A stretch of DNA of 64,000 bases from a bacterium. Lineage in GTDB: Bacteria; JAJVIF01. The translations under genes were made by a program, and so were the position numbers. Below are positions 968 through 12,913 of the stretch, one piece after another (position 1 is the stretch's first letter; each line of letters opens with the position of its first letter). The notes under the pieces are model-generated. The model saw only the letters and a program-made list of their open reading frames with translations. It searched no databases and had not been told where the DNA came from. The stretch is taken from positions 361,204 to 425,203 of the forward strand of contig JAJVIF010000003.1 in the NCBI GenBank assembly GCA_022072165.1, in the 5' to 3' direction.

Positions 968-1699
968 CTAAATGCTGGTGCCCCCGGACTGGGCGACAGC
1001 CCCGTCTTTCAGGAACGCCTTCTCAAAGGCCTTGATCAGGTGGGCCTCGCCGCCGAAGCCTTCGAGCCGTTCCACCAGACGTCCCTCGCGATCCACAAAG
1101 AGGGTGAGCGGAATGCTCATTGCCTTGAAATCTTTCGCGACTTTCATGGCAGTGTCGTGGGCGACCGGGTAGGTGATCTTGCGCTGCTCCACCATTTTGG
1201 TGACCGCGGCGGCGGCTTTCGGGTCGTCCAGGGAGATGGCGATGAATTCGACTTCTTTGCCGTACTGGTCATAGAGCTTCTGGATGACCGGGATTTCATG
1301 GAGGCAGGGACCGCACCAGGTCGCCCAGAGAGTGATGCTGACCGGTTTGGTCCCGTAGAGGACCGTCGAATCGAGGGTGCGTCCATCGAGGGTGGTGACG
1401 ACAAAGTCGGGGGCGCGACCCTCTTCCTTCGTCACCGACTTCGATGTCGAGGCGGGGACATCGGCCTGGATCCATTCCCCCTCATCGGCGGAGGCTTCCT
1501 GTCCGGCGGCATCGGTGGCTGGTTCAGTCGCGGACTCCGACGCCTCGGATGGGGGAGGAGCCGGTTCCGGATCGGCAGGGGCCTGAGCGGGGCCTGCAGC
1601 ATCGCGCGATGCGGGCGTGGGGGTGTCGGCCTCCTGGGACTGGGGAGTCGCGGAGCAGCCGAGGATGAAACAGAGCGGGAGGCACAGCAGGGTGCGCAT
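968..1699 (-). CDS. TlpA-like thioredoxin-fold lipoprotein
   Basis: 243 residues. Residues 1-15 form a lipoprotein signal with lipobox ILGC (Cys15). A low-complexity Ala/Pro/Glu linker of about 75 residues follows, then a thioredoxin fold with the redox motif WCGPC (CGPC at 129-132) and the cis-Pro segment SIPLTLFVDREG. The architecture matches TlpA/ResA/AhpC-TSA-type periplasmic disulfide reductases, held to the membrane by the linker. These commonly serve cytochrome c or heme-copper oxidase maturation, which would fit the respiratory operon 2 kb away, but the specific substrate is inference. A second TlpA-like gene lies just upstream in the same direction. Confidence 0.88.
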   Translation of the reverse strand: MRTLLCLPLCFILGCSATPQSQEADTPTPASRDAAGPAQAPADPEPAPPPSEASESATEPATDAAGQEASADEGEWIQADVPASTSKSVTKEEGRAPDFVVTTLDGRTLDSTVLYGTKPVSITLWATWCGPCLHEIPVIQKLYDQYGKEVEFIAISLDDPKAAAAVTKMVEQRKITYPVAHDTAMKVAKDFKAMSIPLTLFVDREGRLVERLEGFGGEAHLIKAFEKAFLKDGAVAQSGGTSI

Positions 1700-1803: not shown

Positions 1804-2334
1804 TCAGGATTGCAGACTCTTGACGAAGCTCCGGAGGTTTTCTTCGCTGGTGAGTCCGACCTTGGTGTGGCCATTGCCCTTGAGGTCGACGCCATAAATC
1901 ATCGGGATGGCGGTGATTTTGAAGCGCTGGGAGAGGGAGCGGTCGGTATCGATGGCGACTGTGTAGTCGATGCCATGTTTGGTCATCGCGCCCCGGACCA
2001 GCTTGTCGAGTTCTTCCGGTGTTTTGGCGGTGTCGACACTGACACCGATGAACTGCACCTTGTCGCCGAACTCCTTGGCGAGCGTCTTAATGGCGGGGAT
2101 CTCTTTCAGGCAGGGACCGCACCAGGTCGCCCAATAGACCAGCACGACGGGCTTTTTGCCATAGAGCTCCAGGCTGGAGAGCTCCACCGGTTCCTCATCG
2201 AGGGTGGTGACCACGAATCCCAGGGCATCCCCTTTGGTGGGATTGCTGTCTTTGGCGGGGGCTTCGGCCAGGGCTGCTCCGGGGAGGAGCAACGCCAGGA
2301 TCAGCAGGGGAAGGAGCAAGAGGGGTCGGAACAT
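1804..2334 (-). CDS. TlpA-like periplasmic thioredoxin
   Basis: 176 residues with a cleavable Sec signal peptide (Leu-rich core, likely cleavage after ALA at about 23), followed by a thioredoxin domain with WCGPC (CGPC at 72-75) and the cis-Pro motif ITAIPMIYGVD. Unlike the neighbouring paralogue it has no lipobox and no long linker, so it is probably soluble in the periplasm. It shares the lead-in VVTTLD and the active-site surroundings with the downstream gene, which suggests tandem duplication. Expected role: thiol-disulfide exchange with exported proteins such as apocytochromes or CuA/CuB site assembly factors (family knowledge, not shown here). Confidence 0.88.
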   Translation of the reverse strand: MFRPLLLLPLLILALLLPGAALAEAPAKDSNPTKGDALGFVVTTLDEEPVELSSLELYGKKPVVLVYWATWCGPCLKEIPAIKTLAKEFGDKVQFIGVSVDTAKTPEELDKLVRGAMTKHGIDYTVAIDTDRSLSQRFKITAIPMIYGVDLKGNGHTKVGLTSEENLRSFVKSLQS

Positions 2335-3647: not shown

Positions 3648-3794
3648 TTGAATCTGATTGTAGCGAGGGACGACGGAATCAGCTTGACCAGACTGCGCCG
3701 GGCGGGGTACCGTCCCCGCTGGTTCGCAACACTCGCATCAGAGCAGGACCCCGCAGGCGGGGTCGCGCAGGTCACTGAGGCTCGCCCCAGCCGT

Positions 3795-3824
3795 TTGCGG
3801 TTGGGGGAGCGACAGTGCTACACT
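3795..3824 (+). promoter_or_regulatory. Predicted sigma-70-type promoter of the respiratory operon
   Basis: -35 TTGCGG (3795-3800), 18-base spacer, -10 TACACT (3819-3824), giving a start site near 3831. It lies about 60 bases ahead of ccoN and directly abuts the CRP-like palindrome. The call rests on hexamer matches only. Confidence 0.45.
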
Positions 3825-3827
3825 GCG

Positions 3828-3847
3828 CTTGTGAAAACTTTCACAAG
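3828..3847. promoter_or_regulatory. CRP/FNR-family operator upstream of ccoN
   Basis: CTTGTGAAAACTTTCACAAG is a perfect 9-bp inverted repeat with a 2-base centre and contains the CRP-type core TGTGA-N6-TCACA. It sits immediately downstream of the predicted -10 box, a position that would favour repression if that promoter is correct. A second copy with the same half-sites occurs at the ETF operon (43098-43117). No CRP/FNR gene lies in the window. Confidence 0.7.
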
Positions 3848-3890
3848 CGGATGCGCCGACGTCAGTCAGCGCTAAGCGCAGGGGTCTGGT

Positions 3891-5273
3891 ATGCCGAAGG
3901 TCAAGCAGCTCTCGGTCGCGATGTACTTCTGGGGGGCCCTCATTTTCCTCCCACTGGGCGTGACCTACGGGCTGTTCAGCGCGACGCACTTCATCATGCC
4001 CACCTGGGTGGAAGGGATTCCGCAGCTTTCCTTCGGGCGGATGCGGCCGGTCCATATTCACCTGGTGGCCTTCGGCTGGCTGAGCATGGCGTATGTGGGT
4101 GCCATGTACTACATGATCCCGAAGATGTGTAAGACGCCCCTCTGGTCGGAGACGCTGGGGCGCTGGACCGCAGTGGCGCACTTTGGCTGGGTCTGGGCGG
4201 CGGTGATCTGCCTGTCGAATGGGATTACCGAAGCCCGGGAATACGCCGAAGCTCCCTGGTTCCTCGACATTATTTTCCTCCTCTATCTGGTGGCGGTGGC
4301 GGTCAATCTGTTCATGACCATCGCCAACCGGACCCAGAAAAAGCTCTATGTCAGCATCTGGTACTTCACCGGGACGCTGATCTGGTTCCCCTGCGTGTAC
4401 ATCCTCGGGAACCGGGTGTTTATGCGCCTCGATGGCCTGAACGACGCCATCGCGAACTGGTTCTACGGGCACAACATTCTCGGGCTCTGGTTCACGACGG
4501 TGGGTGTCGGGATCACCTACTACCTGATGCCGCTCCTGGTGCGCCGTCCGATTTACTCCCACAAGCTGAGCATGATCGGCTTCTGGGCCATCGCGCTCTT
4601 CTATGCGCCGACCGGGACCCACCACATCCTGCAGTCGCCGGTCCCCTACTGGCTGAAGTCCCTGGCGGTCGTGAGCTCCATCGGGCTGCTCGTGCCAGTG
4701 CTGACAGTCCTCTTCAACTTCTTCCTGACCCTCGACAAGAAGTGGCCGCAGGCCTATGCGAACTACACCCTCCGCTTTTTGATTTCGGGGTGTGTGTTCT
4801 ACCTGATCACCTGCGTACAGGGTCCGTTCCAGGCGACCCGGTGGGTGAACTGGTACATCCACTTCACGCAGTGGGTGGTGGCGCACGCGCACCTGGCGCT
4901 GCTGGGGACTTTCACCAACATGTCGATCGCGGCGATCTACTACATCGTGCCGCGTATCACCGGCCGGCCCATTTTCAGCCGTCCGGCGATGGCCTGGCAC
5001 TGGTGGCTCACGCAGTTCGGCTTCACGCAGTTCTTCGTGGCGCTGACCATCGCCGGTCTGGTGCAGGCGGCAGGGTGGCGCTACGGCTACCCGATCGTGC
5101 AGTGGGTCCAGGCGATGTATCCGGAGCAGGTGGTCCGCTGGCTCGGCGGCATCATGATCGTGGTGGGGCAGTACATCTTCGCCTGGAACATTTACCGGAC
5201 CTTCTTCACGCCAGTGGAGGTCGAGGAAGATTCTGACGCGCCGGTCGCAACCCCTGCGACGCAGGCCGCGTAG
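3891..5273 (+). CDS. ccoN: cbb3-type cytochrome c oxidase subunit I (CcoN/FixN)
   Basis: 460 residues, about 12 transmembrane helices. Heme and copper ligands are visible: RPVHIHLVAFGW (low-spin heme b His), WFYGHNILGLWF (CuB His and the helix that carries the cbb3 cross-linked Tyr), TGTHHIL (two CuB His) and VVAHAHLALLG (heme b3 and heme b His). This is the oxygen-reducing, proton-pumping subunit of a high-affinity terminal oxidase. An AGGGG ribosome site precedes the start. It opens a long operon that continues with the CcoO-type subunit 15 bases downstream and ends with a Rieske/cytochrome b module. Confidence 0.96.
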   Translation: MPKVKQLSVAMYFWGALIFLPLGVTYGLFSATHFIMPTWVEGIPQLSFGRMRPVHIHLVAFGWLSMAYVGAMYYMIPKMCKTPLWSETLGRWTAVAHFGWVWAAVICLSNGITEAREYAEAPWFLDIIFLLYLVAVAVNLFMTIANRTQKKLYVSIWYFTGTLIWFPCVYILGNRVFMRLDGLNDAIANWFYGHNILGLWFTTVGVGITYYLMPLLVRRPIYSHKLSMIGFWAIALFYAPTGTHHILQSPVPYWLKSLAVVSSIGLLVPVLTVLFNFFLTLDKKWPQAYANYTLRFLISGCVFYLITCVQGPFQATRWVNWYIHFTQWVVAHAHLALLGTFTNMSIAAIYYIVPRITGRPIFSRPAMAWHWWLTQFGFTQFFVALTIAGLVQAAGWRYGYPIVQWVQAMYPEQVVRWLGGIMIVVGQYIFAWNIYRTFFTPVEVEEDSDAPVATPATQAA

Positions 5274-5288
5274 AGGAGGGCAACGCTC

Positions 5289-6470
5289 ATGCAGGTCCGG
5301 CAAAAAGACTACGCCTTCCTGGTGGCCTTCGTTTCCGCCACGTTCCTCAGCATCGTCTTTATGACGGTGATCCTGCCGAACATGGTGTTCCAGCCGCAGC
5401 CTTCGGACTATGTGGAAGCGCTGACGGTCCAGGAGCTCCGGGGGCGGGAGGTCTACAAGAAAGAAGGGTGCTGGTACTGCCATACGCAGTTTGTCCGGCC
5501 CCAGGACCGCAATGAAGGACCGGTGGCCCTCTCCGGGGACTTCGAGTTCAAGGAAGAGACGGTCCAGCTTGCCAAAGAGCACGGCTATCAGCTCGTGCAT
5601 CTGCTCGGCACGGAGCGGACCGGTCCGGACCTGAGCCTTATCGGCGGCAAGATGCCCGATGCCTGGCACAAGGCGCATCACGCCAATCCGCAGGCCTTCA
5701 ATCCCGGGTCGATCATGCCGAAGTACAACTACCTCTCCGAGCAGGAGATGGACGACCTGGTGGCGTATCTGCAGACCCTGGGTCGGAAGAAGAACGCCCT
5801 TTCCCGGCAGGCGCATGAGACATTCCGGGGGAACTTCAATGCGGCGTATCAGACAACTACCGAGGGGGGCGTCTCCCTGGGCTATCTGATCGAGCCGGAA
5901 GTTCCCTGGGAGTTCAAGCAGTTCTACGAGAAGAAGTACAAGAACCAGAACCCCATCAAGTACGAGAACCGGTACATCGCCGGGGCCCGGGGGATCTACA
6001 ACAACAAGTGCGCCCACTGTCATGGTGTCCAGGGGGACGGCAACGGTCCCCGGGCCCTGTCACTGACCGAACGTCCGGCAAACTTCCAGTCCAATGACCC
6101 GAACATGGGTTACGACGAGTGGTCGGACATCAAGTGGTACTGGAAGATCGCTGAGGGGGCCGGCCCCGGCGCGGTGATGCCGCGCTGGAATGGAGTCCTG
6201 CATCCCGACCAGATCTGGTACCTGGTGATCTACTGCCGCTACCTGGCGGCGGACCGGACGCTGCCGCTGCCCCCCCGCGATGAGCCGTTGCGGGCACCGG
6301 AGCTGGGTGGTCGGACCTTCCATTACGAAGGGGATGACCTGGTGGTGAGCTATCCCGAGCCTCCGCCCGGGATGCCCCAGTCTGATCCGGCCCTGGACCC
6401 CGGGCTCACCCTGCAGGTCGATGAAGAGCTGGCGGAGACCGGGCAGCCGGTCGGTGCCGCAGGTAACTGA
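5289..6470 (+). CDS. ccoO: CcoO (FixO) fused to a second cytochrome c domain
   Basis: 393 residues. An N-terminal membrane anchor (about 9-30) is followed by a CcoO-type cytochrome c domain with heme motif CWYCH (61-65) and axial Met in GSIMPKYN (about 143). A second class-I cytochrome c domain follows, with CAHCH (241-245) and a Met ligand in AVMPRWNG (about 297). The tail is Pro-rich and acidic. The second domain probably replaces the separate CcoP subunit, since no stand-alone ccoP is present. It relays electrons from cytochrome c to CcoN. A strong GGAGGG ribosome site precedes the ATG. Confidence 0.92.
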   Translation: MQVRQKDYAFLVAFVSATFLSIVFMTVILPNMVFQPQPSDYVEALTVQELRGREVYKKEGCWYCHTQFVRPQDRNEGPVALSGDFEFKEETVQLAKEHGYQLVHLLGTERTGPDLSLIGGKMPDAWHKAHHANPQAFNPGSIMPKYNYLSEQEMDDLVAYLQTLGRKKNALSRQAHETFRGNFNAAYQTTTEGGVSLGYLIEPEVPWEFKQFYEKKYKNQNPIKYENRYIAGARGIYNNKCAHCHGVQGDGNGPRALSLTERPANFQSNDPNMGYDEWSDIKWYWKIAEGAGPGAVMPRWNGVLHPDQIWYLVIYCRYLAADRTLPLPPRDEPLRAPELGGRTFHYEGDDLVVSYPEPPPGMPQSDPALDPGLTLQVDEELAETGQPVGAAGN

Positions 6471-6513: not shown

Positions 6514-6690
6514 ATGCTGACCCACAATCTCTACAGCGCGCACTACCTGGTGATCTTTCTGTCACTGGCTTTCGGAGCCATCGCCATCGGAGCCGCCCTC
6601 TGGAGCATCCGGCATGGCCACTTCCAGTACATGGAAGGGGTTAAGTACTCCATCTTTGATCCGGATGACGACGAGTCGCTGACCGACTAG
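6514..6690 (+). CDS. CcoS/FixS-like small membrane protein
   Basis: 58 residues: one transmembrane helix (about 12-32), then WSIRHGHFQYMEG and an acidic end FDPDDDE. This matches the CcoS pattern (membrane helix, GxF-x-x-EG, then DDD), a small protein needed for cofactor insertion into cbb3 oxidase. A GAGGAG ribosome site sits 10 bases before the ATG. It lies directly after ccoO. Confidence 0.72.
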   Translation: MLTHNLYSAHYLVIFLSLAFGAIAIGAALWSIRHGHFQYMEGVKYSIFDPDDDESLTD

Positions 6691-6720: not shown

Positions 6721-6912
6721 ATGGGCTGTCCCAACTGTGCAGCAAAACTGGCAGAGCTGGGACCGGGCTGGTGGGCCGCTTTTTTCATCGTGGGGCTGTT
6801 CGGGATGCTGGCGGGCTTCATGCTCCTGGCGAACCGGAATGGCCTCGGAGGCCGGGACGAGGATCATCTGGAAGTGAAGTACGCCATTCTCGACTGCGAG
6901 GATGACGACTAG
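6721..6912 (+). CDS. Second CcoS-like small membrane protein with an N-terminal CPNC motif
   Basis: 63 residues. It begins MGCPNCAAKL, has one transmembrane helix (about 17-36) and ends EVKYAILDCEDDD, which parallels the CcoS-like tail of the previous gene (GVKYSIFDPDDDE). The Cys pair at 3 and 6 plus a further Cys near the acidic tail are not part of normal CcoS and suggest metal or thiol chemistry, for example copper handling. A GGGAGGGG ribosome site precedes it. It may have arisen by duplication of the preceding gene. Confidence 0.65.
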   Translation: MGCPNCAAKLAELGPGWWAAFFIVGLFGMLAGFMLLANRNGLGGRDEDHLEVKYAILDCEDDD

Positions 6913-6950
6913 CCCCGGAGCGGGGAGCGCAGGATGGCAAAGGAGCAGTC

Positions 6951-7130
6951 ATGTCGGAAGAAGGCACATCCGTAGAGGCCACCAAGGCGGTGGAGTACGG
7001 TGAGTACGAAGTCGACGCGGATGTCGGGAATGTCCCGGCGCTGCTGATCTGGATCTTTGTCGGCGTCCTGCTGTGGGGAATCTTCTCGTGGGTTCCGTTC
7101 TTCGGCGGGGTGGAAGGCAGTCAGTGGTAG
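6951..7130 (+). CDS. Small single-helix membrane protein of the oxidase operon
   Basis: 59 residues. A hydrophilic, acidic first half is followed by one transmembrane helix (about 30-48) and a short end GGVEGSQW. An AGGAG site precedes the ATG. It has no recognised family. Its position suggests a small structural subunit like CcoQ or the membrane stub of CcoP, but that is inference. Confidence 0.6.
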   Translation: MSEEGTSVEATKAVEYGEYEVDADVGNVPALLIWIFVGVLLWGIFSWVPFFGGVEGSQW

Positions 7131-7161
7131 GTCGCCAGGCGGCCGGAGAGAAGGGGAAGGC

Positions 7162-8142
7162 ATGAGCGCAAGTCGTCATGGGCAACTGACAGGGGTGCGG
7201 GTCCTGAGCGGGCTCGGGCTGTCGCTGACCCTGCTGCTGGGGGCTGCCTGTGGGGCAGCACCAACCGGAGGACGGGCGGTGAATGCGACGCTGGTGACCG
7301 GCACTGAGCTCGCCCATCATTCGCCGGAGCGGCCGAGTCGGTACCTCGGCAAGTTCATCTATCAGCAGAACTGCTCGGGCTGCCATGGTCAGGTGGGGCC
7401 CATGCCCCCGTATAACCTCGATGTGCCGGGCAAGCGGCTCAGCACCGAGCGGATTGAGATGCTCGATGCGCAAAAAGCTGCCCGCATGGAGATCCGCAAG
7501 TCGGAACCGGACCCCTTCTATCCGCCGGTCCAGGGCCCCTATGAAGACATGTACGACTTCCGCTGGTTTGCCAATGGCGGCGAGTTCAGCCGCTACGCGA
7601 ACGGCGCCAAGTCCCCCCTGTCGGACTATACCTACCACCAGATTTTCGAGATGCTCTCCCATGGCGAGCATGGTGATGCGAATCAGAAGTACAACTACAA
7701 GGACCGGCTCTCCGACCGTGAACGGTGGGCAGTGGTCTACTACATCGCCAACATGGGGCTCGATAACGGCCAGGCGGACTGGCAGGAAGCCTGGGATCAG
7801 CAGGTCGCTCTGCGGAAGACGATCTATGGCACCCATTGCTCCATCTGTCACGGGGCCGTGGGTCGTGGGGATGGTCCCGAAGGGCACAAACTGGTGCCCA
7901 AGCCGATGAACTTCACTTACCTCGACTGGTCCGCCGGTGTGAAGGCGGGCTACCCGGTGACCGACGAATATCTGTACGAAATCATCGCGAACGGCAAGAT
8001 TCATCCGGGTTCCATCGAGGGGACGCCGGGGAATCCGGAGCCCCGGTGGACCGGGATGCCGTTCTGGAAAGACACCCTGCGCGAAGAAGACATGTGGGGT
8101 CTCGTGGAATTCATCCGCAGCCTGAGCTACGTGCAGGACTAA
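7162..8142 (+). CDS. Diheme cytochrome c lipoprotein
   Basis: 326 residues. The start is ATG 7162, which gives a proper lipoprotein signal (lipobox LGAAC, Cys30). Two class-I heme c motifs are present: CSGCH (71-75) and CSICH (226-230), with Met-containing loops after each. It is membrane-anchored on the periplasmic side. Lying between the cbb3 genes and the Rieske gene, it is the natural electron carrier from the quinol-oxidising complex to the oxidase. The next gene begins 15 bases downstream. Confidence 0.9.
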   Translation: MSASRHGQLTGVRVLSGLGLSLTLLLGAACGAAPTGGRAVNATLVTGTELAHHSPERPSRYLGKFIYQQNCSGCHGQVGPMPPYNLDVPGKRLSTERIEMLDAQKAARMEIRKSEPDPFYPPVQGPYEDMYDFRWFANGGEFSRYANGAKSPLSDYTYHQIFEMLSHGEHGDANQKYNYKDRLSDRERWAVVYYIANMGLDNGQADWQEAWDQQVALRKTIYGTHCSICHGAVGRGDGPEGHKLVPKPMNFTYLDWSAGVKAGYPVTDEYLYEIIANGKIHPGSIEGTPGNPEPRWTGMPFWKDTLREEDMWGLVEFIRSLSYVQD

Positions 8143-8157
8143 GGGGAGACGCGCGTC

Positions 8158-8820
8158 ATGGAGAAAAGTCTGAGCCGACGCAACTTCATGGCCGCCTGGC
8201 TGGGGGCGCTGCCGGGCTTCGGCCTGCTGGCGTACCTCATCCCGGTCTGGTGGCGCTTTTTGTTCCCCACCATGGAGCCATACGGCTTCTTCTCCGAACA
8301 GGTGCTGGGGACCGAAAAGGAACAGTACGTTGAGAACGTCTCGAACATGAAGAATCCCTGGGACTTCCGGCCCTTCGAGTTTGTCCGGCAGGCCCGCCTC
8401 TTCACTTCCGACGGGATCTACAACACCCGGGTGCCCGGGTTCCTGGTGGCGATTCCGAAAGACCCTTCCAATCCGAAGGCAGGCGAAGTGGAATACCGGG
8501 CGTTCTCCCGTATCTGTGTCCACCTTGGCTGCGTGTTTGACTACGTGGTGGGCCGGGATGCCATCAAGACCGGCTTCAATTACGCCGTGCCGCTGAACGA
8601 GGTCCACTTCGGGTGCCCGTGTCACCTCTCGGTGTATGACCTGTCGCAGCTGATCCCGATTCCAGGCGTGTCCATCAGTCCGGAAGACAAAGACTGGATG
8701 CTGGGACCCAAAGTGGTCTCGGGCCCTGCGCCGCGTCCGGCCCGCCCCTTCAAGGTGAGGGTGGATGAGCAGAGTGGGGACATCTTTATCGTGCAACTCG
8801 AAGGCGGAGGCCTGAGCTAA
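8158..8820 (+). CDS. Rieske [2Fe-2S] iron-sulfur protein
   Basis: 220 residues. The N-terminus has a twin-arginine-like signal/anchor (SRRNFM followed by a hydrophobic helix at about 13-33). Cluster ligands are CVHLGC (about 119-124) and CPCH (about 158-161), the standard two Cys plus two His with the disulfide Cys pair. It extracts the first quinol electron at the Qo site and passes it to cytochrome c. Its stop overlaps the start of cytochrome b by one base (TAATG), implying a fixed stoichiometry. Confidence 0.93.
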   Translation: MEKSLSRRNFMAAWLGALPGFGLLAYLIPVWWRFLFPTMEPYGFFSEQVLGTEKEQYVENVSNMKNPWDFRPFEFVRQARLFTSDGIYNTRVPGFLVAIPKDPSNPKAGEVEYRAFSRICVHLGCVFDYVVGRDAIKTGFNYAVPLNEVHFGCPCHLSVYDLSQLIPIPGVSISPEDKDWMLGPKVVSGPAPRPARPFKVRVDEQSGDIFIVQLEGGGLS

Positions 8821-10046
8821 TGGCGACCAACGCCGCGCTCATCAAAGGCGCACCGGACATCCTGCAGCAGGCCCAGGCCTGGTTGTCGGAGCGGCTGGCC
8901 GTAATGGATCTCTTCGATGAGACCTTTACGGACCGGGCGAAAACGAACCCCTGGTATGCCATCGGCGGGATGTTCTATCTCTCCTGGGTGATCGTGCTGG
9001 TCACCGGCTTCTGGCTCTGGATGTGGTACACGCCGACCATCGAGCAGGGATATGCCAGCATCGAGCGGATCCAGCATGAGATCCCCTACGGCTGGCTGTT
9101 CCGGGCGGTCCACAAGTACGCCGGGGACGCCATGATCATCCTGGCGACCATGCGGGCCTATCGCTTTGTCTTCACAGGGGACTACAAGAAGCCCTACGAG
9201 ATCGTCTACTTCATTTCGATCTTCGCCATCATTCTCTGTATGTACTCGGGGCTCACCGGGTATCTGCTGATCTGGAATCAGCGGGCCTTCTGGGCCACGA
9301 AGGTGATGGTGACGTTCCCGACCTACATCGACTACACCCCTGGGCTGGGCTTCCAGTACTTCGGCCGCAACACCGCGTTCTGGTGGCTGGGGGGCGGGTC
9401 CATTGGTCAGGGGACGATGACGAACTTCCTGACGGCGCACTATGCGCTGTCAATCATTGCGTTCCTGCTGATCGAGCAGTACTTCTGGAAGACCAAGCAC
9501 CGCCGGATCAATCTCTCCGTGCCGCAGATGATCACGACCTTCGCGATCATCGTGGGCGTCGTCTTCATGCGCCCGTCAGAAATGGGCACGTTCGCCAATC
9601 CGACCGTGACCCCGAACCCGATTCTGTCGGACTGGTACTTCCTGGCGCTCTACCAGCTGATGAAATATCAGCATCCGGTGACGGCGACCTGGGTGACGGT
9701 GGCGATTCCGGCGGTGGCGATTCTCTGTGCCTTCCTGGATGTCCGGCCGGAGCGTTCCCTCTGGCAACGTCCGGGGATGGCAGTCTGCTCGATCGCCGCG
9801 CTGCTGCAGTTCATCGCACTGAGCGTCCTGATCATTCTCAACATCGCGGACATTCAGCGGGACCCCCCGTTCTGGTATCTGAGCCTGATGCTGCCGGGGG
9901 TCCTGGCCGGCTGGCTCGAGTGGCAGCACTTTAAGAAGACGAAAGTTCCGAAGGGTCTCTGGGCGCTGCCGGTCTTCGCCAATCAGGTGATGAAGCGTCC
10001 GGAAGCCCCACCACAGACCCGTCCGCAGGCCACTCCGGCGGAGTAG
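8820..10046 (+). CDS. Cytochrome b (bc-type complex), paralogue 1 lacking heme bH ligands
   Basis: 408 residues covering both the N-terminal four-helix and the C-terminal halves of cytochrome b. The Qo-region segment GYLLIWNQRAFWATKV and the ef-loop NPILSDWYFLALYQL (SDWY in place of PEWY) identify the family. The heme bL ligand pair is present (His98 in RAVHKY and His207 in LTAHYAL). The residues 14 positions later that should ligate heme bH are Arg112 and Tyr221 instead of His, so only one b heme is expected. The Rieske gene precedes it directly. Compare paralogue 2 at 10766, which has all four His. Confidence 0.9.
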   Translation: MATNAALIKGAPDILQQAQAWLSERLAVMDLFDETFTDRAKTNPWYAIGGMFYLSWVIVLVTGFWLWMWYTPTIEQGYASIERIQHEIPYGWLFRAVHKYAGDAMIILATMRAYRFVFTGDYKKPYEIVYFISIFAIILCMYSGLTGYLLIWNQRAFWATKVMVTFPTYIDYTPGLGFQYFGRNTAFWWLGGGSIGQGTMTNFLTAHYALSIIAFLLIEQYFWKTKHRRINLSVPQMITTFAIIVGVVFMRPSEMGTFANPTVTPNPILSDWYFLALYQLMKYQHPVTATWVTVAIPAVAILCAFLDVRPERSLWQRPGMAVCSIAALLQFIALSVLIILNIADIQRDPPFWYLSLMLPGVLAGWLEWQHFKKTKVPKGLWALPVFANQVMKRPEAPPQTRPQATPAE

Positions 10047-10097
10047 TCTGGCTGGTCTGATGCCGGAGCGAATCCGGCAGAGAGGAGCCCCGGCACC

Positions 10098-10382
10098 ATG
10101 TTCTGGTGGATGCTGGTGGCGATCGCGGCAGGGGCGCTGATGCTGCTGCTGCAGTGTGTGGGAGTCCTGACCGGCACACGGGAAGGGACTCCTGGGCCGG
10201 AGCATGTGCTGGGCCTCATCCTGAGCGTCGCTGGTCTGGCTACGACGATGCCTGTGATCGTCTTTCTGGACTACAAGTCGCAAAAAAAGAAGGGGAAAGT
10301 GGTCCGCCAGATTCCCCTGTTCGAAAAGGCGCTCACCATCGCTGATCAGCAGCGTCGGGAGCCGGAAGCGAAGGAGCCGTAA
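10098..10382 (+). CDS. Small two-helix membrane protein between the cytochrome b genes
   Basis: 94 residues with two hydrophobic helices (about 3-25 and 37-55), then a Lys-rich KSQKKKGK segment and a charged C-terminal tail. There is no known family. The GAGAGGAG ribosome site and the one-base overlap with the next start (TAATG) place it firmly in the operon. It is likely a structural subunit of the bc-type complex. Confidence 0.7.
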   Translation: MFWWMLVAIAAGALMLLLQCVGVLTGTREGTPGPEHVLGLILSVAGLATTMPVIVFLDYKSQKKKGKVVRQIPLFEKALTIADQQRREPEAKEP

Positions 10383-10738
10383 TGGCCGGGCACGAACCGC
10401 CGAAGCTGAATACCGGAACCGCACTGAACCTCGTGGTGTCAGCGTGGTCGCTCACCTGGGCTGGCCTGGGTGGAGTCGTGGTGCTGCTGATCCTCTGGCT
10501 GGAGACGTTTTACGTCACCTTCGACAAGGAAGCCCAGCAGTACCTGCATAGCGTGACGCTCCCCTTCGCTGTGCCCGGATTTGGCCGGGCGGTGCTGTCG
10601 ACAGTGGAGTTCCAGCAGGTGACGCTGATCCTGTTCGGGTTCGCGCTGATCTGCACCGGTCTGGCGATCATGCCGCTGTACCAGAAGGATGAGCCGGCGG
10701 CCGCGCTGGCTCCTGAGAGTGACGCCAGCGGCGCATAG
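10382..10738 (+). CDS. Two-helix membrane protein between the cytochrome b genes
   Basis: 118 residues with two hydrophobic helices (about 25-46 and 82-101) separated by an extramembrane loop containing TFDKEAQQYLHSV. No cofactor motif is visible. Its start overlaps the preceding stop. It is probably a small subunit of the complex, and I recognise no family. Confidence 0.7.
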   Translation: MAGHEPPKLNTGTALNLVVSAWSLTWAGLGGVVVLLILWLETFYVTFDKEAQQYLHSVTLPFAVPGFGRAVLSTVEFQQVTLILFGFALICTGLAIMPLYQKDEPAAALAPESDASGA

Positions 10739-10765
10739 CGTTGCTGCCCAGAGAGAGGACTGACG

Positions 10766-12028
10766 ATGGCGACATCGATCCAGGAAGTCATCACGAAGCC
10801 CCAGATCCAGCAGACCTATGTTGAGGTCTTCTGGCGGGCTGTGCTCTGGATGGAAGACAAGGTCAACCGGGCGTTCAACAACCGGCTGAATCCCTTTTAC
10901 TACCACGGAGCGCTCCCGAACTTCTTCCTCTTTACGCTGTTTGCGACGGGCATCTTCCTGATGTTCCACTACATCCCCACCCGGCCCCGGGCGTATACGG
11001 AAATCGAGTTCATGACGAACTCGGTGCCGTTCGGGGTCTGGATGCGGGGGGTCCATCGCTACGCGGCTGACGGGATGATGATCGTGGTGCTGGTGCACAT
11101 GTTCCGGGTCTGGTTCACCGACCGGTACCGGGGCTCCCGCATCCTCCCCTGGCTCACCGGCGTCGGGCTCCTCTGGATGCTGTATATCGTCGGCATCACC
11201 GGGTACATGCTGATCTGGGATGGCCGGGCACAGATCGTGACCGCCATGACCCTGGATATGTTCTCTACGGTGCCGTTGATCGGCGGCTGGCTGCAGGACT
11301 TCCTGCGGGGCGGCGAGGCTATCACCGACAACACGCTGGGTCGTTACTTTTCGATCCACATCATGTTCGCGGTGGGGATCTTCTTCTTCCTGGTGCTGCA
11401 TTACATCCGGTTGTACAAACCGAAGACTTCGACCCCCATGCCCCTCTGGATGGTGTTCCTGGGGATCACGTTCATCATCGCCGGGGCGGTGCCGGTGACG
11501 GCAGATCTGCCGACCCCGCTGATATTCCCGGGGACTGGTGACAACGTGGCCGGGTATTCCCGGAGCATGGGCATCAGCTACGACGAGGCCGTGAGCATGG
11601 CGGCGCAGGCTGCCGGCGCGGAGCTCGCGGCTGGTGACGCCTCCTGGACCATCGACTGGCTGTACATGTGGCCCTATGGTCTGTACTACTCCATCGGACC
11701 GGGAGCCTTCTGGCTCTTCATGGCCCTGATTACGGTGCTCTTCTTTGTGCCGTACTTCGTGAAGACGCACCGGCCTTTTGCCTACGTCATCGAGGAAGCC
11801 TGTGTCGGCTGCCAGCTCTGCTACCTCGACTGCCCCTTCAACGCCATCGAAATGATCGAGAAGCCGAGCCTCAAGAAGGGGCGCAAACCGAAACTGCTGG
11901 CGATCGTGTACGAAGCGCGCTGCACCTCCTGTGGAGTCTGCGTCGGTTCCTGCGCGTATGAGGCGATCGAGATCCCGCGAGTCCGCTCGCAGGAGATCGA
12001 GGCCGCGGTCGCGGCGCTGTGCAGCTAG
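10766..12028 (+). CDS. Cytochrome b paralogue 2 fused to a 2x[4Fe-4S] ferredoxin
   Basis: 420 residues. Residues 1-335 are a cytochrome b with all four heme ligands: His97 and His111 in one helix, His198 and His212 in the other (spacing 14 in both). A DWLYMWPY segment sits where the Qo ef-loop lies in normal cytochrome b. Residues 340-405 form a bacterial ferredoxin domain with two clusters: CVGCQLCYLDCP (346-356) and CTSCGVCVGSC (386-396). The fusion would let the membrane b hemes exchange electrons with low-potential cytoplasmic carriers. It is followed 28 bases later by an MvhD/FlpD-like gene, another cytoplasmic iron-sulfur electron adaptor family. Confidence 0.92.
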   Translation: MATSIQEVITKPQIQQTYVEVFWRAVLWMEDKVNRAFNNRLNPFYYHGALPNFFLFTLFATGIFLMFHYIPTRPRAYTEIEFMTNSVPFGVWMRGVHRYAADGMMIVVLVHMFRVWFTDRYRGSRILPWLTGVGLLWMLYIVGITGYMLIWDGRAQIVTAMTLDMFSTVPLIGGWLQDFLRGGEAITDNTLGRYFSIHIMFAVGIFFFLVLHYIRLYKPKTSTPMPLWMVFLGITFIIAGAVPVTADLPTPLIFPGTGDNVAGYSRSMGISYDEAVSMAAQAAGAELAAGDASWTIDWLYMWPYGLYYSIGPGAFWLFMALITVLFFVPYFVKTHRPFAYVIEEACVGCQLCYLDCPFNAIEMIEKPSLKKGRKPKLLAIVYEARCTSCGVCVGSCAYEAIEIPRVRSQEIEAAVAALCS

Positions 12029-12056
12029 ACTGGAAAGCCGTCAGAGAGGACCTGCC

Positions 12057-12557
12057 GTGAGCGAGACTGCCACCGCTGTCGGAGCCCCAGAGAAAGTCCG
12101 GATCATCGGCTTTGTCTGCGAACGGGCGTACGACCTGGAGAAAATCCTGAACGCCGACGGGACCCTGAAAGCGGATCCTGATGTCCGGCTCATCGCCCTG
12201 CCCTGCAGTGGCATGGTGCAGCCGGGGTTCATCGAAAAGGCGCTGGAGGCAGGCGCGCAGGGCGCTTTCGTTATGGGCTGCCTCCTTGGCGACTGCTACT
12301 TTCGGGACGGGAACTACGTCATCAAAGAGCGGATCGAACGGACCCGGCGGCCGCAGATCAAGCGCAAGTACAACCTCGAGCAGATCGGGACCATCTGGTT
12401 CTCCCGGGCCATGATGGAAGAAGAACTCTACGGTCTCATCGCCAGTTTCAAGGACCGGGCGCTTTCCTTCTGTAAGGAGCATCCGGAGAAGATGCCAGCG
12501 GCTATCGCCGCGCACGAGGCGGAGCTCCGCCGGTCCCGCGCTGCCGCCCGGAAGTAA
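12057..12557 (+). CDS. MvhD/FlpD-like electron-transfer protein (hydrogenase delta-subunit family)
   Basis: 166 residues from GTG 12057, preceded by AGAGGA. It carries the family hallmarks VRLIALPCSGMVQPGFIEKA and GAFVMGCLLGDCYFRDGN, as in MvhD/FlpD, which bind a [2Fe-2S] cluster and link heterodisulfide-reductase-type complexes to hydrogenase or formate dehydrogenase. The first part of the usual Cys set is reduced to a single Cys21 (FVCERAYD). It lies directly after the cytochrome b-ferredoxin fusion and probably docks on that ferredoxin in the cytoplasm. The electron donor or acceptor is not encoded nearby. Confidence 0.8.
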   Translation: MSETATAVGAPEKVRIIGFVCERAYDLEKILNADGTLKADPDVRLIALPCSGMVQPGFIEKALEAGAQGAFVMGCLLGDCYFRDGNYVIKERIERTRRPQIKRKYNLEQIGTIWFSRAMMEEELYGLIASFKDRALSFCKEHPEKMPAAIAAHEAELRRSRAAARK

Positions 12558-12607
12558 CGACCGGACGTTCCGTTCGTATCGCAGTCTCATCGCTGGAGGG
12601 CCCGCTG

Positions 12608-12748
12608 ATGGCCAAGCCTGACATCCCGAAGCCGCCGGTCGATCCCCGCGAAGTCACCGCGGTCGATATCCGGTATGTGGCGTACTTCGCCTTCTTCGCC
12701 TTTATTCTCTACATCATCGCCAGCTTCGGCCTCATCGCCGAGGTCTAA
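12608..12748 (+). CDS. Tiny single-helix membrane protein
   Basis: 46 residues. A Pro-rich hydrophilic head is followed by one transmembrane helix rich in Phe, Tyr and Ile (about 22-43). It sits 50 bases after the MvhD-like gene with GGAGGG upstream of its ATG. No family is recognised. It is likely an accessory subunit of the respiratory complex. Confidence 0.6.
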   Translation: MAKPDIPKPPVDPREVTAVDIRYVAYFAFFAFILYIIASFGLIAEV

Positions 12749-12769
12749 GCGTCAAAGGACCCGCTGCGC

Positions 12770-12913
12770 ATGGAACCGGTCCAGTACGGCTATCTTTTTC
12801 CCCTGGCGATGCTCTTCGTCTTCGTGATCCTGCCGGTCTGTCTCTGGCAGGGGTTTCACTGGATGCATGAGCTGGATGAGACTGATCACGATCACGGCAA
12901 TCACGGCCACTAG
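12770..12913 (+). CDS. Tiny membrane protein with a His-rich tail
   Basis: 47 residues: one transmembrane helix (about 8-27), then HWMHELDETDHDHGNHGH. The terminal His/Asp cluster looks like a metal-binding tail (copper, zinc or iron), fitting a role in cofactor delivery or assembly. It is the last gene before the operon terminator. It has no recognised family. Confidence 0.6.
   Translation: MEPVQYGYLFPLAMLFVFVILPVCLWQGFHWMHELDETDHDHGNHGH

Follow-up and report, generated by a model that had tools for sequence, protein, structure and literature searches.

An engineered bc1 complex whose halves have one functional site each, Qo in the first and Qi in the second, has been shown to turn over by electron transfer between the two bL hemes, over 14 Å (PMC4330944). 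The importance of transfer between bc1 halves in living cells has so far been argued mainly from engineered mutants. In the operon described here the alternative route has apparently been removed by nature in one half, and the question is therefore directly testable in a wild-type enzyme. This operon, encoded in a bacterial window (the whole stretch of DNA that was analysed, 64,000 nucleotides), resembles those of bc1 and b6f complexes in its Rieske protein, cytochrome b fold and c-type cytochrome, and in an oxidase partner as in bc1-cbb3 supercomplexes. Unlike these complexes, which have one b polypeptide, it encodes two diverged b proteins: b1 lacks heme bH ligands and has the Qo motif (S/A)DWY rather than PEWY, and b2 carries a 2x[4Fe-4S] arm, with FlpD encoded next to it. 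The engineered fused b-b bc1 has a layout like the one that we propose, with Qo in one half and quinone reduction in the other, linked via the two bL hemes alone, but it is a mutated laboratory construct (PMC4330944), whereas the asymmetry here is natural and involves separate genes and a ferredoxin arm. The Fer4 pair followed by FlpD also resembles the C-terminal layout of HdrA2, and MvhD, in HdrABC-MvhAGD (5odc), but the operon lacks the flavin part of HdrA, and the arm is joined to a membrane cytochrome b instead.

In Melainabacteria, "complex III/IV" clusters have been reported in which petB and petC, annotated as b6f subunits, lie beside a C-type oxygen reductase (PMC6349859). This is probably the same operon; in the part of that report drawn on here, a second b protein, the ferredoxin arm, FlpD and the lost heme ligands go unmentioned. 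The sequence-only reading had allowed that related clusters might already be described; the cluster does have this earlier name, and no account of its asymmetry was found. No description of a Rieske protein, FlpD and a b heterodimer in combination was found in the open-licence literature. What is new is the loss of the heme bH ligands in b1 against their full retention in b2.

All of the genes named in the sequence-only reading are present where it placed them (Table 1), and the conserved unit is longer than it had noted, since it begins at ccoN and takes in ccoOP, s1-s3 and the diheme cytochrome c. An orthologue of ccoN lies upstream of b2 in 31/41 loci, and the s1/s2 and s3 families occur in 23/41 and 11/41 loci, respectively. 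The diheme cytochrome c also lies upstream of the Rieske gene in relatives, supplying the c-type partner typical of bc1 and b6f complexes, and is the probable link from Rieske to cbb3. The Pfam score of the Rieske protein (18.1 bits) is below the cut-off of 20.3, and its two Cys and two His cluster ligands (CxHxGC and CPCH) are unchanged in 37/37 covered orthologues. A domain search of b2-Fd gave no match to Cytochrom_B_C. Inside the operon, 7 terminator-like sites are predicted against 5.0 expected, and 0 promoter-like sites against 2.0 expected.

Table 1. Genes of the conserved operon, with positions in the window.
Gene	Product	Position	Strand	Basis
ccoN	cbb3-type oxidase catalytic subunit, first gene of conserved operon	3891..5273	+	TIGR00780 9.8e-77
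ccoOP-like	CcoO + c-type domain fusion	5289..6470	+	PRK14486 2.9e-41, CcoO/CcoP domains
s1, s2, s3	three small single-TM proteins	6514-6690, 6721-6912, 6951-7130	+	ORFs
cytochrome c	diheme c-type cytochrome, start approximate	7153..8142	+	two CxxCH; Cytochrome_CBB3 1.1e-16
Rieske	Rieske [2Fe-2S] protein	8158..8820	+	Pfam 2.6e-3 and cluster ligands
b1	eight-TM cytochrome b	8820..10046	+	Cytochrome_B 1e-25 and Cytochrom_B_C 4.5e-7
sm1	small membrane protein	10098..10382	+	equivalent ORF between b1 and b2 in 27/41 loci
sm2	small membrane protein	10382..10738	+	equivalent ORF in 20/41 loci
b2-Fd	six-TM cytochrome b fused to 2x[4Fe-4S]	10766..12028	+	Cytochrome_B 6.8e-31, two 4Fe-4S motifs
FlpD	FlpD/MvhD-like protein, GTG start	12057..12557	+	PF02662 2.2e-20; best solved structure MvhD 5odc_D 1.4e-14
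t1	tiny single-TM protein	12608..12748	+	ORF; single weak relative, in locus L081
t2	tiny single-TM protein with His-rich tail	12770..12913	+	ORF; no relative among compared loci

The two b proteins differ most clearly in their heme ligands. The heme bL ligands of b1, H98 and H207, are present in 40/40 orthologues, and the bH positions are never His: position 112 is R in 35 and K in 5, and position 221 is Y in 31, R in 5, F in 3 and V in 1 (n=40; R112 and Y221 in the window). Of the usual four His per b chain, b1 thus lacks the two for heme bH in 40/40 sequences, and b2 has all four in 89/89 (97, 111, 198 and 212 in the window). When b1 was aligned independently, by profile, to cytochrome b6 of 1VF5, the second helix-B His of b6 paired with R112 of b1. 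Canonical bc-type b proteins placed alongside b1 and b2 in a further alignment keep all four His and PEWY/F; the bovine cytochrome b row there was a convenience control, and what carries the argument is the 1VF5 comparison and the fetched proteins. Glycine at the helix-C position that packs heme bH is kept in 89/89 b2 sequences and in just 9/40 b1 sequences. A missing His supplied by sm1 or sm2 was ruled out, as no His is conserved among the aligned relatives of either protein. It may be that b1 has a heme ligand of an unusual kind. At the Qo motif, DWY follows S or A in 40/40 b1 sequences (SDWY in the window), and b2 of the window has DWLY, not PEWY, at this position. Given the complementary ligands of b1 and b2, the most economical reading is that the two form an asymmetric dimer.

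An alignment-based scan of genome contigs gathered about 40 loci of other phyla with this gene order, and this places the arrangement far from chance. The operon spans at least five bacterial phyla and is present in Melainabacteria, Acidobacteria and Armatimonadota, among others; viral contigs scanned with b2 gave no relative. In the tree, b1 and b2 are separate lineages, with b1 forming one clade (99/99), and the two are co-inherited (Mantel r=0.94, with 0/5000 permutations as high). We found b1 in 16/16 genomes of the two-gene type and in 0/29 of a fused type (at least 390 against at most 152 bits), and a search of 385 genomes that began from b1 returned six b1 genes, each adjoined by b2-Fd-FlpD. 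The conserved co-occurrence that the sequence-only reading had proposed as a check thus holds wherever b1 was found. It had also held that independent occurrence of b1 and b2 would count against a single complex: no b1 turned up that lacked a b2, but proteins of the b2 type do occur in other phyla without b1, as fused b-Fd-FlpD proteins. Such a fusion can be seen in the domain list of RME88945.1 (PMC8756737). The fused proteins carry the three modules of the operon in unchanged order, but in one chain, to which a further C-terminal domain is often added, and they fall inside the b2 clade, the whole forming one clade with a b6-like four-His core, 2x[4Fe-4S] and FlpD. Their loci have no b1 or Rieske gene alongside, and the neighbours are CuA-type heme-copper oxidase genes, often with SCO.

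The existence of b2-type proteins without b1 would suit two separate assemblies, one a homodimer of b1 with Rieske and the other a homodimer of b2-Fd with FlpD, the latter a stand-alone wire from cytoplasm to quinone like the fused family. In a b1 homodimer, however, the second electron would be stranded on heme bL, and an engineered double bH knockout has no functional connection between Qo and Qi (PMC4330944). As b1 without b2 was also never found in the searched genomes, we regard separate assemblies as quite unlikely.

The reading that we consider probable is an asymmetric b1/b2 heterodimer joined to cbb3, with cytoplasmic electrons entering via the iron-sulphur arm. The gene set and its conservation, the ligands lost and retained, the cysteines, the co-inheritance and the predicted folds are established here, and from them we infer the heterodimer, the bL-bL path, the contact with the oxidase and a Qi site on b2; the direction of electron flow and the identity of the partner are the most tentative parts. 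The membrane core of this Rieske/cytochrome b complex would be the heterodimer, electrically coupled to the cbb3 oxidase, and quinol would be oxidised at a Qo site on b1 with the Rieske protein. The first electron would pass from Rieske via the diheme cytochrome c and cbb3 to oxygen, and the second from heme bL of b1 to heme bL of b2 and on to the bH heme of the latter, which would lie close to the cytoplasm. As b1 would lack heme bH, the sole exit for this electron would be the crossing to bL of b2, and the apparent loss of one heme from b1, with both kept in the arm-bearing b2, would make transfer between the halves compulsory. The covalent 2x[4Fe-4S] arm of b2 would lie at the bH side, with FlpD docked on b2, and electrons would be shared among heme bH, a probable Qi site for quinone reduction and a soluble cytoplasmic redox partner. 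In the likeliest direction, cytoplasmic electrons would pass via FlpD to the ferredoxin arm, and menaquinone would be reduced at the cytoplasmic side by these electrons and the one from Qo. We favour entry over exit because the arm persists both in relatives in which a Rieske gene was not found and in the fused family within heme-copper oxidase operons. The complex would then be of the bc type and have a permanent electrical link to the cytoplasm, an idea comparable to the input from ferredoxin to b6f during cyclic electron flow, and it would widen the respiratory-chain architecture of non-photosynthetic relatives of Cyanobacteria and of other phyla.

The cluster ligands of the arm are C346/349/352/356 and C386/389/392/396. 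These eight Cys are kept in 88-89/89 sequences, and FlpD has the cluster Cys typical of Hdr-Mvh/FlpD subunits, with Cys 21, 50, 75 and 80 kept in 43/43, save that the fourth is kept in 42/43 (one gap). Both classes of b2-type gene lie in oxidase operons, and this could fit a heterodimer with an ordinary Q-cycle, in which the arm and FlpD serve purely in structure, regulation or oxidase assembly. Retention of the eight Cys of the arm and the four of FlpD across phyla is, in contrast, the pattern expected of redox-active clusters, and we think this reading very unlikely.

In Hdr complexes that bifurcate electrons, MvhD proteins act as relays. It is possible, if doubtful, that the heterodimer bifurcates menaquinol electrons between the Rieske/c/cbb3 branch and a path from bL via bL and bH to the ferredoxin arm and FlpD, reaching a low-potential cytoplasmic acceptor by oxygen-driven reverse flow. 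Every cofactor of this path is present and conserved, most members have Rieske and the Qo motif, and FlpD matches MvhD of 5odc. The arm survives, however, not only in the fused family but also in two relatives (G001 and G003) that keep b1-b2-FlpD and in which no Rieske gene was found, in drafts 92% and 82% complete. The host genome (99% complete) has no match to HdrB (PF02754) or to NiFe hydrogenase (PF00374), with control genomes positive for both, and a partnership with HdrABC or hydrogenase is ruled out for this host. The host quinone is probably menaquinone. Menaquinol lies near -75 mV and a menaquinol-type Rieske centre near +130 mV, and the membrane potential opposes the transfer; with such textbook potentials, the cytoplasmic side would reach roughly -130 to -280 mV, which is marginal for NAD and too high for ferredoxin. 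The asymmetric heterodimer of the sequence-only reading thus gains from the non-equivalence, separate lineages, co-inheritance and complementary ligands of b1 and b2, and the low-potential bifurcation that it attached to the dimer is so far not supported. A quinone-based bifurcation hard-wired to oxygen, in an obligate natural heterodimeric bc complex of at least five phyla with bL-bL as the sole route and the low-potential electron reaching a cytoplasmic carrier via the arm and FlpD, is in our estimate unlikely.

For the favoured entry of cytoplasmic electrons, no gene for a soluble partner is conserved around the operon beyond its own genes in the neighbourhoods compared. An FDH-like Mo enzyme with a NuoE/F-type subunit is encoded elsewhere in the host genome, away from the operon. 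In AlphaFold2 models of b1 and b2 (pLDDT 83 and 84), b1 has eight helices and b2 has six and the Fd domain, which is predicted to lie on the bH side of b2. By fold, b1 matches 8smr and 5kkz, and b2 matches bc1 cytochrome b and b6 of 2e74.

Orthologue alignment shows that b1, the eight-helix cytochrome b of the operon, retains invariant bL ligands (40/40 each), while its two bH positions hold Arg or Lys at one and Tyr, Arg, Phe or Val at the other (40 orthologues). By comparison b2-Fd, the cytochrome b fused to a 2x[4Fe-4S] ferredoxin, has His at all four heme positions (89/89). The b1 pattern was the same in an alignment to b6 of the solved structure 1VF5 and in one with canonical b proteins, all of which retain four His and PEWY/F except another unusual b from the same genome (L041). 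The helix-C glycine that packs heme bH is invariant in b2 and missing from most b1. Two residues from the lost bH ligand b1 carries E219 (38/38 where aligned), R/K112 is universal in b1, and we suspect that these residues jointly occupy the empty bH pocket. In a b1 homodimer the second quinol electron would have no route beyond bL, and a partner b2 would supply both bL and bH; in engineered bc1 such a path works on the catalytic timescale over 14 A (PMC4330944). From these considerations we infer that the membrane core is a b1/b2 heterodimer.

The sequence-only reading had proposed conserved co-occurrence as a check, and on the b1 side this was borne out: a b1 profile run against 45 genomes found b1 in all 16 two-gene genomes (at least 390 bits) and none in the other 29 (at most 152 bits). 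As the 45 had been picked via b2 or kinship, a b1-first search of 385 broadly sampled genomes was added; it found b1 in six, with b2-Fd and the MvhD-like FlpD adjoining in 6/6, and the next matches (at most 217 bits) were canonical b where inspected. The b1 and b2 distance matrices correlate at r=0.94 (0.89 without two divergent relatives and one near-copy), which shows joint inheritance rather than contact, since common species history alone can yield such a correlation. In the tree b1 is a single clade (99/99), and single-chain b-Fd-FlpD proteins fall inside the b2 clade, a relation whose polarity is tentative because the root is a midpoint.

Domain matches identify b1 as a full-length cytochrome b, C-terminal part included, and b2, together with its AlphaFold2 model, as a b6-like core followed by two more helices and a two-cluster ferredoxin domain. 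Model quality is fair for both (b1, pLDDT 83, pTM 0.83; b2, pLDDT 84, pTM 0.82), and their top Foldseek matches are bc1/b6f cytochromes b. In cytochrome b, helix A begins at the cytoplasmic side, where the bH-ligating ends of helices B and D are also found; with this helix order the b2 ferredoxin, after helix F, would lie on the same membrane side as heme bH. FlpD is similar to MvhD, with four Cys invariant among orthologues, and the Fer4 pair followed by FlpD matches the layout of the HdrA2 tail. A long C-terminal extension that the window's b1 lacks is found on b1 at L045, L050, L053 and further Obscuribacterales loci; a heme c motif was not apparent in the L045 protein.

The gene list and coordinates of the sequence-only reading proved correct by ORFs and domain matches, and the operon is larger than it had described, running from ccoN at 3891 to the tiny membrane protein t2 ending at 12913 with every gene on the + strand. 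Its genes overlap or nearly abut, base 8820 being common to the Rieske stop and b1 start and base 10382 to the small membrane protein genes sm1 and sm2. Two thioredoxin/TlpA-like proteins encoded upstream of the cbb3 genes may serve in cytochrome c or copper maturation, and two very long antisense ORFs are probably shadow reading frames in GC-rich coding sequence (Table).

Scanning named genomes with a profile yielded 80 loci. Those with separate genes (L045-L085) have the order ccoN, ccoOP, diheme c, Rieske, b1, small genes, b2-Fd, FlpD in nearly all cases where the contig extends far enough; cbb3 genes were not seen at the usual position in L059 and L085. Hosts are Melainabacteria/Vampirovibrionia, Holophagae and other Acidobacteria, Armatimonadota including Fimbriimonadaceae, and one MAG classified under Bacillota. 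The core also recurs in family f79 (L158-L160), where the oxidase genes follow a different arrangement. L086-L124 have one b-Fd-FlpD gene instead and b1 is absent from these loci; where sequence suffices, most of them lie in an operon for a CuA-type heme-copper oxidase, often alongside SCO. Single-chain proteins (L086-L124, L038) are widespread in Verrucomicrobia, Nitrospinae, Nitrospirae, Proteobacteria and Bacteroidetes, and an unassigned multi-TM protein is often encoded beside them as well.

One report describes, in Melainabacteria, petB and petC adjacent to C-type oxidases and calls them a complex III/IV combination (PMC6349859); papers on Vampirovibrio and Obscuribacter name complexes I-IV or just cbb3 oxidase, and a protein that combines cytochrome b6, ferredoxin-type and FlpD domains is listed without comment (PMC8756737). 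In the open-licence literature we found nothing that describes a heterodimer of two b proteins, the loss of bH or the ferredoxin-FlpD arm. Canonical Rieske/cytochrome b complexes have four His in every b, and PEWY, and the operon's complex departs from both; we file it among them as a variant not described in that literature.

Two same-class relatives, L044 (G001) and L037 (G003), keep diheme c, b1, b2-Fd and FlpD, and searches of both draft genomes with the Pfam Rieske model and with the family profile found no Rieske gene. Both have long b1/b2 branches and an acidic N-terminal extension on FlpD, and ccoN of G001 is very divergent or frameshifted. We modestly prefer electron entry through the arm to exit, because the arm persists in these relatives and is kept in the single-chain family, because futalosine-pathway genes point to menaquinone as the organism's probable quinone, and because HdrB and NiFe hydrogenase were not found in its genome. 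A formate-dehydrogenase-like enzyme is a possible source of cytoplasmic electrons. The b of the odd L041 pair lacks the usual bH His spacing in aligned helices B and D, has PEWW at the Qo position and sits on a very long tree branch; the pair adjoins a heavy-metal P-type ATPase and urocanase. With the L040 set as a further one, the genome has three different Rieske/b sets.

Table. Coordinates of features near the operon and elsewhere in the same genome (C1)
Feature	Position	Strand	Remark
TlpA-like pair	window 968-1699 and 1804-2334	-	WCGPC
Antisense ORFs, 761 and 615 aa	window 3738-6023 and 6949-8796	-	opposite cbb3 and Rieske genes
Formate-dehydrogenase-like molybdopterin enzyme and fused NuoE/NuoF-type subunit	L167:1589-6378, C1 about 667.6-672.4 kb		
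Odd Rieske and cytochrome b pair	L041:5570-7053, C1 about 773.6-775.1 kb		
Canonical-looking Rieske/cytochrome b and multiheme cytochrome c	L040:4875-8239, C1 about 526.9-530.2 kb
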